Source of the DNA: Desulfonatronum sp. | Lineage (GTDB): Bacteria; Desulfobacterota; Desulfovibrionia; Desulfovibrionales; Desulfonatronaceae | DNA length: 52,101 nt | Direction: 5' to 3' | NCBI GenBank assembly: GCA_011049455.1 | Contig: DSBL01000131.1 | Span: 1 to 52,101 of the forward strand | In this document: piece after piece, positions 6,265-13,883 of the stretch | Layout: each line of letters opens with the position of its first letter | Numbering within the stretch: the stretch's first letter is position 1 | Made by a program: the position numbers and the translations under genes | The notes under the pieces: model-generated | What the model was told of the DNA's origin: nothing | Databases searched by the model: none | Seen by the model: the letters and a program-made list of their open reading frames with translations, nothing else

Positions 6265-6720
6265 CTACTCTCCGCGGGCCAGGTCCCGCTCCACAGCGCG
6301 ACGCTTGAGGTCCTCGCGCTGGTCGTGGGTCTTCTTGCCCTTGGCCAGGGCCAATTCCACCTTGGCCCGTCCGCCCTTCCAGTACAAGCGCAGCGGCACC
6401 ACGGTCAGCCCCTTTTGCGCGGTCTTCCCGGTCCAGGCGTTGATCTGGTGTTTGTGAAGCAACAGTCTGCGTTCCCGTTCCGGCTCATGACCCGTGTGCA
6501 CGGCATGGACGTAGGGCGAAATGTACAGTCCCACAAGCACGGCCCCGTCGCCGGCAAACCGGACATAACTGTCCTTGAAGCTGACCTTGCCCTCGCGCAG
6601 GGATTTCACCTCGGAGCCCATCAGGGCCATGCCCGCCTCCAGAGTTTCCAGAATCTCATACTCATGTCTGGCCTTTTTGTTCTGGGCAATCAGCCGTGAG
6701 CCTGCGATCTTTTGCCCCAT
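6265..6720 (-). CDS. smpB: SsrA-binding protein SmpB
   Basis: SmpB binds tmRNA and brings it to stalled ribosomes for trans-translation. The 151-residue protein begins MGQKIAGSRLIAQNKKARHEYEILE and contains the family's GxxLxGxEVKSLR segment and a basic C-terminal tail (KKTHDQREDLKRR). A TTG three bases upstream is in frame, but GAGGG sits 6 bases before the ATG at 6720 and only 3 before the TTG, so the ATG is preferred. That ATG overlaps the ptsI stop as TGATG, so translation is probably coupled to ptsI. No tmRNA gene (ssrA) was seen in the window. Confidence 0.96.
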   Translation of the reverse strand: MGQKIAGSRLIAQNKKARHEYEILETLEAGMALMGSEVKSLREGKVSFKDSYVRFAGDGAVLVGLYISPYVHAVHTGHEPERERRLLLHKHQINAWTGKTAQKGLTVVPLRLYWKGGRAKVELALAKGKKTHDQREDLKRRAVERDLARGE

Positions 6721-8498
6721 CAATAGCCCTCGTCCAGCAGGGAGGAATAGAACATCAATTCATGGGGATGTTGGCGAAATATGCTGTCCTTGACCAGCTT
6801 ATTGTTTCGGCTCACGGTCCGGCTGGCCAGGACCTGCTTGAGTAGATCCTTGCAGTCCTCCATGGACGCCTGACGAATGATATGCTTGGTCACTGGAATC
6901 GCTTGGGGATTCATGCTCAGGCAGTCCACCTGCATGCCCATGAGCACGGGGATGCAATACGGATCAGCAGCCATCTCCCCGCAAAGGCTGACCTCGATCC
7001 CGGCCCTGTGACCGGCATCCACCACGTACTTGATCATCCGCACCAGTGCCGGGTGCAGAGGCTGATACAAATAGGAGACATGGGAGTTGGTCCGATCAAT
7101 GCCCAGGCTGTACTGGATCAGGTCATTGGTGCCGATGCTGAAAAAATCCACCTCCCCGGCCAGGATATCCGCCGTTAGCATGGCTGAAGGCAGTTCGATC
7201 ATGATGCCCACGGGCATTTTCGGATTGTACTTCAGCCCCTGCTTTTTCAATTCCGCCTGAACAGAGCCCATGAAGGCCTTGACCCTCAGCAATTCACCCA
7301 ACCCCGAGATCATGGGGAACATCAAGGAGATATTTTCATGCACGCTGGCTCGCAGGATGGCCCGCAACTGGACCCGGAACAGATCCTGATGGTGCAGACA
7401 GAAACGAATGGCCCGCAGGCCCAAAGCCGGGTTGGCCTCGTCCAGCGGCCCAAAATGAGAAATGAATTTGTCCGCGCCCACGTCCAGAGTACGGATTACC
7501 ATTTTCCCCGGATGAATCATGGAGGCCAGGTCGCGATACTCATCCAGCAACTGTTCCTCGTCAGGCATATTGATTCTGTTCAGGTAGGAATACTCGGTGC
7601 GATAAAGGCCGATGCCTTCCCCCCCGTTGCCCAGCACCGAGGAAATTTCCTCCAACAGCTCGATGTTCGCGAACACCTTGACCTGATACCCGTCGATGGT
7701 CTCAGCGGGCAGATGGCTGGATCGGATAATCCTGGCTTGGTAATCCTCGAATTGGTATTTTAAATCCGTAAATTCGGACAGTTCCTCCTCATCCGGTTCA
7801 ACATAGATTCTTCCCTGCAAGCCATCGATGATGATCAACTGTCCGTCCTGGATGAAATCTTCCAGTTCGGCGACGCCCACGATGGCCGGAATCTGCAAGG
7901 CCCTGGCAAGGATTCCCGAGTGGGACGTCTTGCCGCCGGTCACCGTGGCAAACGCCATGATCTTGCCCACTTCCAGCTCCACGATGTCCGCGGGACTCAA
8001 GTCATGGGCCAGCAGAATGACTCTCGAGTGGATGGATTTTATCCCTGAGTTTGTCCCGCCCCACAAATGTTGCTGCACTCGTCCGGCCACCACGCGCACG
8101 TCCTGAATCCGTTCGCGGATATAAGCGTCCTCAAGGGTCCGGAAAACACTTTCAATATCTTCCACGGATTTTTCCAAAGCCCACTCCGCATTGAGCTGCA
8201 TTCGGCGTATGTAATCCTTGGTCGACTCCAGCAGTTTCGGGTCCTGAAGCATCATAATGTGCGAATCGATTATTCGAGCATGCTCCATGAGTTCCGACGG
8301 CACGCGGGTTTGAATACGTTCCAGTTCCTCCAAAGCCCTTTGAAAAGCCTGCTCCAGACGCGACACTTCCTTGTCCAGCTCTTCGACCGGGATGGTTTGT
8401 CTGGGCATATTGTGGATGTGCCCCCGGTTCAGAAAAAAAGCGCGCCCCACGGAAATCCCCGTGGAAACGGGAATCCCTTGAAGAATGGTTTCAGCCAC
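6720..8498 (-). CDS. ptsI: Phosphoenolpyruvate-protein phosphotransferase, PTS enzyme I
   Basis: Enzyme I transfers phosphate from PEP to HPr. The 592-residue protein has the phospho-histidine motif GGKTSHSGILARA near 190, the PEP-binding signatures in the TIM-barrel half (SIGTNDLIQYSLGIDRTN) and the CGEMA motif near the C-terminus. Length is typical (570-600). The start is GTG at 8498, overlapping the ptsH TAG stop (TAGTG), so HPr and EI are translated together; the ptsI stop in turn overlaps smpB. EI and HPr are catalytically complete by motif. No EIIA, EIIB or EIIC gene is nearby, so the phosphate acceptor beyond HPr is not visible here. Confidence 0.96.
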   Translation of the reverse strand: MAETILQGIPVSTGISVGRAFFLNRGHIHNMPRQTIPVEELDKEVSRLEQAFQRALEELERIQTRVPSELMEHARIIDSHIMMLQDPKLLESTKDYIRRMQLNAEWALEKSVEDIESVFRTLEDAYIRERIQDVRVVAGRVQQHLWGGTNSGIKSIHSRVILLAHDLSPADIVELEVGKIMAFATVTGGKTSHSGILARALQIPAIVGVAELEDFIQDGQLIIIDGLQGRIYVEPDEEELSEFTDLKYQFEDYQARIIRSSHLPAETIDGYQVKVFANIELLEEISSVLGNGGEGIGLYRTEYSYLNRINMPDEEQLLDEYRDLASMIHPGKMVIRTLDVGADKFISHFGPLDEANPALGLRAIRFCLHHQDLFRVQLRAILRASVHENISLMFPMISGLGELLRVKAFMGSVQAELKKQGLKYNPKMPVGIMIELPSAMLTADILAGEVDFFSIGTNDLIQYSLGIDRTNSHVSYLYQPLHPALVRMIKYVVDAGHRAGIEVSLCGEMAADPYCIPVLMGMQVDCLSMNPQAIPVTKHIIRQASMEDCKDLLKQVLASRTVSRNNKLVKDSIFRQHPHELMFYSSLLDEGY

Positions 8499-8782
8499 TA
8501 CTGCACCTCTTCAAAACGATTCAAGAACAGCTGCTCCAGCTGCTCCAGCGCAACCTGGGCGTCCTCGCCCTGAGCCCTGATTTCCACGTTGCATCCGGGG
8601 CCTAAAGCCAGGGTCAAGATGTCCAGTATGCTTTTGGCATCCACTTCCTGTTCCTGACTGCACAAGGTGATTTTGGAAGTAAACCTTTGTGCTTCCCGAG
8701 CCAAGCGGGCGGCCGGGCGGGCGTGCAGGCCCAGCTCGTTGGCCACGCACACCCGCCGAGTAACGACATCAAGTGATTCCAT
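8498..8782 (-). CDS. ptsH: Phosphocarrier protein HPr
   Basis: The 94-residue protein has the active-site motif ELGLHARPAA with the phosphorylated histidine at about 21, and the region around the regulatory serine reads VDAKSILDILTLALGPG. The usual SVMGLL context is altered to SILDIL, though the serine itself is kept. It receives phosphate from EI, encoded immediately downstream with overlapping stop and start. The ATG at 8782 has GAGG about 10 bases upstream. Whether the serine is regulated by an HPr kinase cannot be said, because no hprK is in view. Confidence 0.95.
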   Translation of the reverse strand: MESLDVVTRRVCVANELGLHARPAARLAREAQRFTSKITLCSQEQEVDAKSILDILTLALGPGCNVEIRAQGEDAQVALEQLEQLFLNRFEEVQ

Positions 8783-8807
8783 GAACGGTACACCTCAGAC
8801 AATAAAT

Positions 8808-8829
8808 TTGCGGGGACCTGAACCCGCAA
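8808..8829 (-). terminator. Weak hairpin between the EIID gene and ptsH
   Basis: TTGCGGG at 8808-8814 pairs with CCCGCAA at 8823-8829 around an 8-base loop. Read on the minus strand the stem is followed by ATTTATTG, which is only partly T-rich. It could be a weak terminator or attenuator that partly separates ptsH-ptsI-smpB from the upstream EIID gene, or an mRNA-processing structure. Confidence 0.3.
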
Positions 8830-8928
8830 TCACATGCTCCTCCCACATTCATCCGCACATGATTTGCGGGGATGTTCACCTTGGCAATCATAGACTCGCT
8901 CCCGATCAATCGCGCACCACCTTGACCT

Positions 8929-9690
8929 TCATGACGCCAGAAGGCTCCAGGCAGCCCAATACCCAAAAAAAGCAAGCGCCAGCCATGTCCGGGACATTCG
9001 CAGGCGCATGGAGCAAAACGCTCCGACGATCACGGCAACGCTCCAGTGCGCCCATTCCCACCCGGAACCCAGCATCGGCCAAAGATGGAGCCAGACCAGG
9101 GCCAGCAGTCCGGCATTGACCATCTTGATCCGCTGCCCCCAATTGATCAGGTTCCATTTTTTCAAGCGATTCAAAAAAGCAATGCCCTCGCGCAGGCCTC
9201 CGACAAAAGTCGCCAGTTTGAATATCTGCAAGGTCACGAAACAGGCAGTCAGCCACAACCAAGCCGCCGGGGTCCATCCATTGATCACCAGCAAGACCAG
9301 AACCAGGGAAAAAAGGACCAAAGCCCCGCCCCCGAAAAAAGAATCGCCCACCGCGGACAGCGTATATGTTGTCGTGGTCTTCACCCGGTGCAACATGTTC
9401 GCGGGCAGAACGCCGCGAGCAATATCGCGCTCCACGGACAAAAAAATTCCCACCAGCAGGGGCGTCCAATACGGATGGGTGTTGTAATGCTGCAGGGCGC
9501 GTCGCCGGGCCTGTTGACGGGCCTTGTCCCGTTGGTGCAAAGCCCGCAGTCCGGGTTCCAAAGCTAGAGCCAGGCCGACATTCTGCATGCCCCTGGTGTT
9601 GAAATTGGCGCCCACCAGGTAGGAACGCAAAAAGCACCGAGCCGCTACACGAAAACCCAGGGCTGAAGTGCTTCGCACGGGAGCGGTCAT
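8929..9690 (-). CDS. PTS mannose/fructose/sorbose-family EIID component
   Basis: The 253-residue membrane protein has the EIID signatures: a FLRSYLVGANFNTRGMQNVG segment near 20-40, the NTHP motif (family FFNTHP, here HYNTHPYW) and several hydrophobic helices in the second half. EIID pairs with EIIC to form the sugar channel of mannose-class PTS systems. Here no EIIC is adjacent. A longer frame extends 42 codons upstream, but the ATG at 9690 overlaps the rsmI stop as ATGA and fits the family start, so it is used. The protein lies 146 bases upstream of ptsH. It may work with subunits encoded elsewhere, or it may be a remnant with a regulatory role. Confidence 0.85.
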   Translation of the reverse strand: MTAPVRSTSALGFRVAARCFLRSYLVGANFNTRGMQNVGLALALEPGLRALHQRDKARQQARRRALQHYNTHPYWTPLLVGIFLSVERDIARGVLPANMLHRVKTTTTYTLSAVGDSFFGGGALVLFSLVLVLLVINGWTPAAWLWLTACFVTLQIFKLATFVGGLREGIAFLNRLKKWNLINWGQRIKMVNAGLLALVWLHLWPMLGSGWEWAHWSVAVIVGAFCSMRLRMSRTWLALAFFGYWAAWSLLAS

Positions 9691-10547
9691 ATTCGCTTTC
9701 CCGGGGAAAAACGGTCCGGACTGGCGACAATGCGGGCATAGAGTTCCTTGGAGGACCATCCCGAGACCCGGGCCGCGGCACGAACAGCGATTTCCCGGGG
9801 CAAGCCCGCTTGGCATTCCTCAAGAAGAATTTGTTCCACGCTCTCTTCCGGTGTTTTCGGTTCATGCTCTGGAGGACCGATAATCACGGTCATCTCGCCG
9901 CGAGGATCCCAAACAAGATCAGCATGGTTCTCCAGTTTATCAACAAGAAGCTGCTCGTGCTTCTTGGTCAATTCGCGGGCCAGACAAAGCTCCCTGGGAC
10001 CGAGAGTCTCCGAAGCGATGGCCAGGGTAGAGGCCAGCCGGGAATTGCGTTCAAAAAAAACCAGGGTGGTGGGAATTCCAGTCCAGGTGGAAAAAAGACG
10101 CTTTTTCTCGCCCGCCTGCCTGGGAAGAAAACCAAAAAAAGAAAAGGGACACGGAGGCAGGCCGGAAGCGCATAAGGCCGCAACCGGAGCGCAAGGGCCT
10201 GGAATGGGGGAAACAGGAAATCCCGCTTCACGGCAGGTTCGAACCAGTCTATACCCCGGATCGCCAATCACCGGCGTCCCGGCGTCGGAAATCAAGGCAA
10301 CATTGCTCCCTGTTTCCAGAGCACGAAGCACTGCGGGAATGCGTTCCTGTTCGTTATGTTCAAAAAAACTGCAAAGGCGCCCCTGGGGATGAATTCCGTG
10401 CCGCTGAAAAAACAATCCCGCCCTGCGGGTATCCTCGGCCAGGATCAATTCCGCCTGGTTCAGCATCTCCCCTGCCCTGGGACTTAAATCACCAGGGTTG
10501 CCAAGGGGCGTGGCAACGACCCACAGCCTGGGGGAACTCAAAGGCAT
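9687..10547 (-). CDS. rsmI: 16S rRNA C1402 2'-O-ribose methyltransferase RsmI
   Basis: RsmI methylates the 2'-O of C1402 in the 30S decoding centre using S-adenosylmethionine. The 286-residue protein starts [25 protein letters not shown], and the SAM-binding loop LISDAGTPVIGDPG sits at about 85-98, both diagnostic of this tetrapyrrole-methylase-fold family. The ATG at 10547 has GGAG ten bases upstream. The conserved WVVATPLGN begins nine residues in, so a later start is impossible and the frame truly overlaps the end of yraN by 59 bases. Its own stop overlaps the EIID start. Confidence 0.97.
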   Translation of the reverse strand: MPLSSPRLWVVATPLGNPGDLSPRAGEMLNQAELILAEDTRRAGLFFQRHGIHPQGRLCSFFEHNEQERIPAVLRALETGSNVALISDAGTPVIGDPGYRLVRTCREAGFPVSPIPGPCAPVAALCASGLPPCPFSFFGFLPRQAGEKKRLFSTWTGIPTTLVFFERNSRLASTLAIASETLGPRELCLARELTKKHEQLLVDKLENHADLVWDPRGEMTVIIGPPEHEPKTPEESVEQILLEECQAGLPREIAVRAAARVSGWSSKELYARIVASPDRFSPGKRI

Positions 10548-11512: not shown

Positions 11513-11866
11513 CTATTGCACCCAGGACGTCTTGGACTTGATGCGGCTGGCCTTGCCTTTGAGTTTGCGCAGATAAAAAATCCTTCCCCGGCGAACCTTG
11601 CCCTCGCTGACCAACTCAATGCGTTCGATAAAAGGAGAGTGCAGGGGAAAAATCCGTTCCACTCCAATTCCGTCGGAAATCTTGCGCACCGTGAAGGAGG
11701 CATTGGTCGTGCCGCGATGCCGACACAGGACTACGCCCTCAAAGGTTTGAATGCGTTCCTTGTCCCCTTCCAGGATGCGCACGAAAACCTTTACCGTGTC
11801 CCCGGCCTTGAATTCGGGGATATCCATGCGCATCTGCGGATATTCAATTTTCTTGATGAGATCCAT
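11513..11866 (-). CDS. rplS: 50S ribosomal protein L19
   Basis: The 117-residue protein matches L19 along its length: [34 protein letters not shown], then [36 protein letters not shown]19 sits at the interface of the two ribosomal subunits. The ATG at 11866 has GGAG upstream. It follows trmD by 78 bases, completing the classic rpsP-rimM-trmD-rplS order, here with the KH-protein gene between rpsP and rimM. Confidence 0.99.
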
Positions 11867-11944: not shown

Positions 11945-13234
11945 TCATCCGGAATCCCCCAGCAGCCTGTCCACGATAATGGCCGCAGCGGAGCGTACGG
12001 AAAGATGATTATAGGCGCTGTAAAACCGAATCGGGCGCAATACTCCGGCGCAACGCTCCAAAACCTCCGATGCAAGACCGTGGCCGGTGCCCAGGACCAA
12101 AAGCACGGGCTTGGCATGCAATGCTTCGCGAACCTGGGCGACCGTCATGGTTGCGGTCGCATACGAAGCCGCGCTGGTGCCCACAAGCAGGGGTTCTTGT
12201 CCCGTTTGCTCCCGCACGCCTGCAACGGCGTGGTCCAGGCTTTCCACCAAGCGCACCAGGGCGAGGGCGTCCGCTCGATCAACATTGCCTTCCCTGCCCG
12301 GACCATTGGTCCAGTGACGCACCAGCCGCTCGCCGAGACGGCGTTGGTCCTGCAACGGCGTACAGACATAGTAGCCGCCCATGTCGTAGGTCCGAGAAAC
12401 GCGTGCAATATCGTGAATATCCAGGTTTGTCAAAGAGACAGTGCCAATTTGGCCATGCTTGTTCAACACCGGGGCGTGAACAAGAGCCAGATGACAATTT
12501 TTGGAAATACGACAACGGGTCAAATTCAAACGCCGCAAAACGACCAGGTCCGAAGCGGACAAGGGCGCTTCGTGAAGCAGTTCGGGCCGACAATCCAAGG
12601 TGTCGGCCAGGGAGCCCTCTCGCCGCCAAGCTGCGATTTTCGCATGATCCCCGGACAGCAACACCTCCGGGACCCCGCAGCCTTCGAACTCTTCCGGCCT
12701 GGAGTAATGGGGGTGTTCCAGAACTCCCCGGGCAAAGCTCTCATCCGCCACGGATTCGTCGTGACCCAAAAAACCGGGCAATAATCGCGCTGCGGCCTCC
12801 AGCAAATGCAAGGCCGCCGTTTCCCCGCCATTAAGCACCACATTGCCCACGCTCACGGTTTCAAGGTGAAACAGATCCTCCAGCCTGGCGTCAATCCCTT
12901 CATAGCGACCACAGATCAGGGTCAACGACTGTTCCCGGGAGAACCGGACGGCCATAGCATGATCCAATGGCCGGCCCTTTGGAGAGAGCAGCAGAATTTT
13001 TCCTGTCGATTCAAGACTGCGCAGGGCCGCGGCCAAGGGCGGCAGGGTCATGACCATGCCTGGACCGCCACCATATGGTCGATCGTCGACACTGCGATGA
13101 CGATCCAGCGTAAAATCCCTGGGATTGATCAAGCGCACCTTGACCATACCCTGGTCAACGGCCTTGCCCAGCAAACCACAACAAAGCGCGGAATCGAAAA
13201 ATTCCGGGAAGATGGTCACAATGTTGAAAATCAT
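11945..13234 (-). CDS. trmD: tRNA (guanine37-N1)-methyltransferase TrmD fused to a second SPOUT-type RNA methyltransferase domain
   Basis: Residues 1 to about 225 are TrmD, which makes m1G37 in tRNA: DDRPYGGGPGM at 51-60, the knotted SAM-binding segment LICGRYEGIDARLED at 106-120, and HYSRPEEFEGCGVPEVLLSGDHAKI. Residues about 245-429 are a separate domain of the Methyltrn_RNA_4 type (SPOUT-like), with LGTGHGL near 381 and YNHLSVRSAAAIIVDRLLG at the end. In other phyla this second domain is an independent protein encoded next to trmD. The residue aligned with the E. coli catalytic Asp169 (in EDSF) is Glu165 here (DESF). The target of the second domain is unknown. The ATG start fits the family; its ribosome binding site is weak. 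Confidence 0.95.
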   Translation of the reverse strand: MIFNIVTIFPEFFDSALCCGLLGKAVDQGMVKVRLINPRDFTLDRHRSVDDRPYGGGPGMVMTLPPLAAALRSLESTGKILLLSPKGRPLDHAMAVRFSREQSLTLICGRYEGIDARLEDLFHLETVSVGNVVLNGGETAALHLLEAAARLLPGFLGHDESVADESFARGVLEHPHYSRPEEFEGCGVPEVLLSGDHAKIAAWRREGSLADTLDCRPELLHEAPLSASDLVVLRRLNLTRCRISKNCHLALVHAPVLNKHGQIGTVSLTNLDIHDIARVSRTYDMGGYYVCTPLQDQRRLGERLVRHWTNGPGREGNVDRADALALVRLVESLDHAVAGVREQTGQEPLLVGTSAASYATATMTVAQVREALHAKPVLLVLGTGHGLASEVLERCAGVLRPIRFYSAYNHLSVRSAAAIIVDRLLGDSG

Positions 13235-13256: not shown

Positions 13257-13790
13257 TCAAGTGAGATACAATTCAAGCAAGCCGGGCGGCGGATCGATCC
13301 GGACTGCATTGTTTTCCAGGTCAATCTCCAAAACCAGTCGTTCATGGGCCGGAAAAAGCACTTCGCGCCCTTGCTCGGTTTGTATGGACCACAACTCCTG
13401 CCCTCCGGCCTCGCTCACCGCCTGGATGCGACCGAGCAACACCCCGGACGGCAGAAAAACCTTGGCGTCAATCAGTTCACGCTGGTAAATCTCACCCTCT
13501 TGCCTGGTCGGCATGTCCGCTTCCCGCGCCAGGAGCTCCCCGCCCCGCAACAGCTCGGCCTCGTGCCGCCCCGTGACTTGCTCAAGGGTGATCAGCACTT
13601 TGGAGTTGTGCACGCGCCAGGACTGGACACGCACCCGTCGCGGCCGGGCTTGTGAATTGATACGCAGATATAGCCTGGCAACGTGGTCAAAAAAATCAGG
13701 GGAGTCCACGTACGATACAATGCTGAACTCCCCGGCCAACCCATGGGGCTTGATCACCTTGCCGACAACTATCAGCGGCTGTCTGGACAT
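13257..13790 (-). CDS. rimM: 16S rRNA processing protein RimM
   Basis: RimM assists 30S assembly by binding S19 and the 16S 3' domain. The protein (177 residues from the ATG at 13790) starts VVGKVIKPHGLAGEFSI and ends with a PRC-barrel containing GRIQAVSEAGGQELWSIQTEQGREVLFPAH. A TTG three codons upstream would give 180 residues; the ATG is chosen as the normal start, though its Shine-Dalgarno is weak (GAG about 10 bases upstream). It lies between the KH gene and trmD, 22 bases before trmD. Confidence 0.96.
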   Translation of the reverse strand: MSRQPLIVVGKVIKPHGLAGEFSIVSYVDSPDFFDHVARLYLRINSQARPRRVRVQSWRVHNSKVLITLEQVTGRHEAELLRGGELLAREADMPTRQEGEIYQRELIDAKVFLPSGVLLGRIQAVSEAGGQELWSIQTEQGREVLFPAHERLVLEIDLENNAVRIDPPPGLLELYLT

Positions 13791-13883
13791 GAATAACAAC
13801 GCTCGTCGCGCAAGCGCTCACAGGGTCTGCCCGGCGGACCACACCCCAAAAACCACGTCTGATTGCCGACTGATCTCATGGCG

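Follow-up and report, generated by a model that had tools for sequence, protein, structure and literature searches.

Why is the tRNA methyltransferase TrmD of a Desulfonatronum species continued, in one reading frame, by a second domain of the SPOUT type, and what may this domain do? We analysed the gene within a stretch of 52,101 nucleotides (contig DSBL01000131.1 of assembly GCA_011049455.1), referred to below as the window. The sequence-only reading had placed a frame of 429 residues at 11945-13234. Coordinates and length stand as given, while the strand had to be corrected: the gene lies on the minus strand, with its ATG at 13234 and its stop ending at 11945, and an internal stop interrupts the plus-strand reading of the interval, which does not encode this protein.

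The fusion gene and its two domains

The features of the locus are as follows.

11945..13234, minus strand: trmD-Tm1570 fusion gene, 429 residues plus stop; whole-chain match to PDB 8b1n (phmmer E 1.5e-102)
12569..13234, minus strand: TrmD part, residues 1-222, tRNA m1G37 methyltransferase by TIGR00088 and NF000648, both above cut-offs
12500..12568, minus strand: linker, residues 223-245, poorly conserved (identity 0.24-0.43 to 24 relatives)
11948..12499, minus strand: Tm1570 SPOUT domain (PF09936, COG4752), residues 246-429; PF09936 E 8.7e-68, 3dcm phmmer E 1.9e-41 over query residues 245-429
13257..13799, minus strand: rimM, directly upstream (PF01782 and PF24986)
11513..11866, minus strand: rplS (ribosomal protein L19), directly downstream (PF01245, E 3.6e-46)

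Read along the minus strand, the gene order is ffh, rpsP, a KH-domain protein, rimM, the fusion gene, rplS, rnhB, a UPF0102 protein and a TP_methylase protein. The assembly (95.21% complete) has a single match to PF01746 and a single match to PF09936, and both are the fusion gene. Near this run, window positions 6720-9816 of the same strand hold PTS genes, namely an enzyme I protein (PEP-utilisers) and a mannose-family IID component; the short frame between them is HPr-like as judged by eye.

The N-terminal half exceeds the NCBIfam equivalog cut-offs for TrmD (TIGR00088, 245 bits against 195; NF000648, 277 against 220), with the Pfam domain PF01746 at residues 23-217 (E 5.8e-52). Arg154 and Asp169 are the catalytic residues reported for TrmD (PMC5372744). 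The place of the former is R150 here and is Arg in all 80 other loci compared; the place of the latter is Glu165, and among the same 80 loci, a set chosen by likeness to the fusion protein, 54 have Glu and 26 have Asp. A loss of TrmD catalysis, suspected from this Glu, was rejected since Glu is the commoner residue in these loci and is also present in the active enzyme of Calditerrivibrio nitroreducens; judging by the alignment, it is a common conservative variant. A separate observation concerns residue 131 (window 12842-12844), which is Asn here, against Asp in 79 and Glu in one of the 80 loci. The seven proteins read within the genus have Asn (three) or Gly (four), and 17 other relatives with the site have Asp in 15 cases, Asn in L133 and Glu in L134; Asn is also found in the unfused L151. 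The residue at this place in C. nitroreducens, Asp134, is listed among those of the TrmD dimer interaction (PMC11187310).

After about residue 245 a second SPOUT domain follows in the same frame, just as the sequence-only reading had proposed. PF09936 covers residues 247-426 along nearly its whole profile (positions 2-182 of 182; 228 bits against a cut-off of 22.6), and the two motifs pointed out earlier, LGTGHGL and YNHLSVRSAAAII, are present from residues 381 and 408 respectively. Sequence matches of the fusion protein or its second domain by phmmer are 8b1n, 8ri0 and 3dcm, the last being the SAM-bound Tm1570 protein of Thermotoga maritima. The predicted model of the full chain has a mean pLDDT of 85.3, with weak places at residues 56-58 and 405-409. 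Its best fold match is 8b1n (Z 31.7 over 422 residues), which is also the top match of the whole chain by sequence, and the SAM-bound 8ri0 is likewise a fold match; the second domain of the model (residues 243-429) has the fold of 3dcm, with Z 28.1, an rmsd of 1.6 A over 186 residues and 41% identity. This match to a SAM-bound structure and the conserved SAM-site residues described below speak against a lack of the SAM-binding loop and the putative knot in residues 240-429, the result that would have refuted the sequence-only reading.

Conservation was read from 81 Tm1570 domains, of which 40 are fused and 41 free, after removal of four identical rows. Eleven residues are identical in all 81 (H274, D275, R278, W308, R320, G382, T383, G386, H410, R414 and R423), and the putative active-site residues are equally conserved in fused and free domains. 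Neither N409 (N in 74 of 81) nor Ser412 (S in 73 of 81) is strictly kept. COG4752 has been described as carrying an Arg where TrmH-type 2'-O-ribose enzymes have their catalytic Arg, along with a conserved Ser (PMC1829167), and by our own motif reading this Arg would be R278. The SAM contacts given for the C. nitroreducens homologue, Ala357, Ile402 and Asn409 (PMC11187310), align to A355, I402 and N409. Because R278 and the SAM positions are kept, and because the C-terminal half is nearly as conserved as TrmD (identity to the 24 relatives 0.49-0.73 and 0.51-0.75, respectively), the Tm1570 half looks, on its residues, like a working enzyme.

The TrmD-Tm1570 fusion is an architecture already known, with a solved crystal structure, and the gene is ordinary for its bacterial group. 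DVU0836 of Desulfovibrio vulgaris, LI0220 of Lawsonia intracellularis and a protein of the deltaproteobacterium MLMS-1 were described in 2007 as fusions of TrmD and a COG4752 SPOUT domain (PMC1829167), and 66 proteins with the TrmD-Tm1570 architecture were counted in 2024 (PMC11187310). Our protein is likened to DVU0836 and LI0220 by this description of a shared architecture; Desulfovibrio is among its nearest named relatives. The fusion protein of C. nitroreducens was studied in vitro, and its crystal structure is 8b1n; it is a homodimer with G37-dependent methylation of tRNA and with SAM-bound structures (PMC11187310). When G37 of the tRNA was changed, the activity dropped to a level described by the authors as "no activity", yet was at least twice the control (PMC11187310). 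It shares with our protein the domain order, the length (433-436 residues there) and a match along nearly the whole chain, at 39% identity over 422 aligned residues. The two differ in SGNH there against SGDH here, and in Asp134 there against Asn131 here; the whole-chain rmsd of 14.7 A between the model and 8b1n may reflect a different angle between the domains.

Spread and origin of the fusion

The fusion gene is conserved and not a product of chance, because the search for relatives gave a match in all 25 other genomes and one frame spans both domains in 23 of the 24 loci read, the match in G216 being split between two contigs. The 25th relative, G203, has only a piece of the gene at a contig start. 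Among the named relatives that carry the fusion are Solidesulfovibrio alcoholivorans, Desulfovibrio sp. DV and a Desulfovibrionales MAG, which most likely places the source organism within Desulfovibrionales. In relatives of Desulfovibrio, the Tm1570 domain is fixed to TrmD.

On the scale of the phylum the picture is wider. Among 197 genomes, for which a completeness of at least 90% was requested, 193 have PF01746 and 128 have PF09936. The fusion, as a single frame with both domains, is verified in 13 of the 128 (G000, G171, G088, G025, G156, G061, G196, G112, G184, G037, G071, G097 and G121), and two more (G143 and G164) are likely fused by frame length alone. The sequence-only reading had described the second domain as a free protein encoded beside trmD in other phyla. 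The free neighbour is indeed found, whereas its confinement to other phyla does not hold, as in only these 13 of 128 genomes of the same phylum was the fusion verified, with two more likely. Adjacency could be counted in 93 of the 128 genomes, those among the trmD places listed, with 35 outside the count: 91 of the 93 have Tm1570 directly behind trmD and on its strand, with the PF01746 and PF09936 matches 37-362 bases apart. In the other two, G069 and G095, the matches lie on different contigs. A long open frame as a sufficient sign of fusion is refuted by G113, G152 and G192; in this set of loci (L149, L151 and L152) the PF09936 frame is open for 432-441 codons and trmD lies in another frame.

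The 81 domains were also placed in a quick tree supported by SH-aLRT only, with 27 open forks and with long branches at L160, L014 and L009. On it the fused or free label changes at least five times, three of them forced by well-supported branches; each change may be a gain or a loss of the fusion. Of the fused rows, 31 from around the window's order group together and six of one other family (f27) make up a second group, with three (L093, L008 and L009) standing apart from both. One of these, L009, comes from a contig titled uncultured Clostridia, and its trmD-Tm1570 fusion on a long branch may have arisen separately, been transferred or come in through faulty binning. Beside the first group stand four free rows (L151-L154) in which trmD and Tm1570 are neighbours in different frames, which fits the path proposed in PMC11187310, from neighbours through overlap to fusion. 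We infer that the fusion arose from a long-standing neighbourhood of the trmD and Tm1570 genes.

Possible role of the Tm1570 half

With the architecture known, one more copy tells little; the question of weight is which substrate the Tm1570 domain has. Among the titles and abstracts listed by the literature searches, with subscription journals mostly outside their coverage, none assigns the domain a substrate, and PMC1829167 (2007) and PMC11187310 (2024) give it as unknown, in line with what the sequence-only reading had stated. That the family performs 2'-O-ribose methylation of RNA is a prediction in print (PMC1829167, PMC11187310), and from the likeness of Tm1570 to TrmJ, structurally its closest relative, a 2'-O site in tRNA has been guessed (PMC11187310).

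We give a probability of about 0.73 to the reading of the fusion protein as a dimeric two-domain enzyme, with m1G37 made by one half and a predicted 2'-O activity of the Tm1570 half at another site. The protein would be a two-domain RNA methyltransferase, probably double-knotted, and a homodimer. Its TrmD half, the sole TrmD-family protein found in the assembly, would make m1G37 in tRNA; a homodimer acting in this way is the likeliest picture, as for the C. nitroreducens homologue. The knot of the Tm1570 half would bind a second SAM, and this half is most likely a ribose 2'-O-methyltransferase of RNA; its site probably lies in tRNA, at a position that is probably none of 18, 32 and 34. Its activity and substrate class are what we infer. 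The incomplete conservation of N409 and Ser412 and the whole-chain rmsd to 8b1n weigh against the reading, and so does a published result: the isolated half of the homologue has near-background activity on tRNA-Leu(CAG), at 18% +/- 9%, which its authors find comparable to the control lacking SAM (PMC11187310).

The same result favours a second half that is a non-catalytic helper, stabilising TrmD dimers or aiding tRNA binding; the authors themselves suggest that the Tm1570 half aids substrate binding and the stability of the complex (PMC11187310). The Asn or Gly at residue 131 in all seven proteins of the genus, at the place of the dimer-interaction residue Asp134 of the homologue (PMC11187310), would partly favour such a role as well. 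The isolated TrmD half of C. nitroreducens, however, elutes as a dimer and keeps 86% of the activity (PMC11187310), which also weakens the suggestion of the sequence-only reading that the second domain tunes TrmD dimerisation. Moreover, the change at residue 131 occurs without the fusion too, most other fused proteins keep Asp, and the putative active site shows the same conservation whether the domain is fused or free. A mere helper is accordingly quite unlikely in our judgement.

Another alternative is that the Tm1570 half replaces a known tRNA 2'-O-methyltransferase (TrmH at 18, TrmJ at 32 or TrmL at 34), now or in the lineage where Tm1570 arose. The likeness to TrmJ speaks for it (PMC11187310), and so does Thermotoga maritima, the sole carrier of PF09936 among 14 control genomes, which has no match to the TrmJ, TrmL or TrmH families; this is what replacement would predict there, and it counts against our view that sites 18, 32 and 34 are improbable. 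The genome studied here, in contrast, carries TrmH-, TrmL-, TrmJ- and RlmB-like proteins. One best protein each was found for TIGR00050 (TrmJ/YjtD, positions 4-231 of 233), TIGR00185 (TrmL, 2-149 of 154), NF008295 (TrmH, 2-174 of 230) and TIGR00186 (RlmB, 7-233 of 240), all under the curated cut-offs. The sequence-only reading had suggested a second site on the anticodon arm of the same tRNA, and the target may lie there; but the known 2'-O sites of that arm, 32 and 34, have a TrmJ-like and a TrmL-like protein of their own in this genome.

Co-occurrence in the 197 genomes points the same way. TrmJ is found in 99 of the 128 genomes with PF09936 and in 55 of the 69 without it (Fisher p 0.86), TrmL in 60 of 128 and 11 of 69 (p 1e-5), and TrmH in 26 of 128 and 2 of 69 (p 5e-4), all with genomes treated as independent and kinship ignored. 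A stricter TrmJ count, in which four weak rows (G047, G109, G132 and G150) are dropped, gives 95 of 128 against 55 of 69 (p 0.48). PF09936 occurs together with all three families in 19 of the 197 genomes. The E-value limits were 1e-10 for TrmJ and 1e-30 for TrmL and TrmH; the curated cut-off was reached in 124 of the 154 genomes counted for TrmJ, 4 of 71 for TrmL and 1 of 28 for TrmH, so that modification sites are assigned here by likeness. Replacement predicts fewer of these enzymes beside Tm1570, and equal or larger numbers are seen, which lowers it to very unlikely; as a main reading it was rejected on this co-occurrence. Judging from these family matches, Tm1570 is probably no stand-in for TrmJ, TrmL or TrmH, and the co-occurrence argues, without settling it, that its target differs from the three standard tRNA ribose sites.

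The target may also lie outside tRNA. The second half could methylate rRNA and be joined to TrmD only through the shared ribosome and tRNA maturation of the rpsP-rimM-trmD-rplS run. The neighbours ffh, rpsP, the KH protein, rimM, rplS and rnhB are in keeping with this, as is the fact that RlmB-type enzymes are SPOUT 2'-O enzymes able to act on rRNA. That fused rows occur at several points of the tree would instead favour a shared substrate, and we regard an rRNA target as unlikely. A bolder form of the tRNA reading, also held only as a minor possibility, is that the Tm1570 half 2'-O-methylates a site to which no known bacterial enzyme has been assigned, while the tRNA that receives m1G37 is still bound, and that the recurrent fusion reflects selected coupling. 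If true, one enzyme would set two marks in a single binding event. A simpler organism in which to seek the mark made by free Tm1570 is T. maritima, where the domain, fused in our protein, has its own gene, which shares 7 nucleotides with trmD (PMC11187310).
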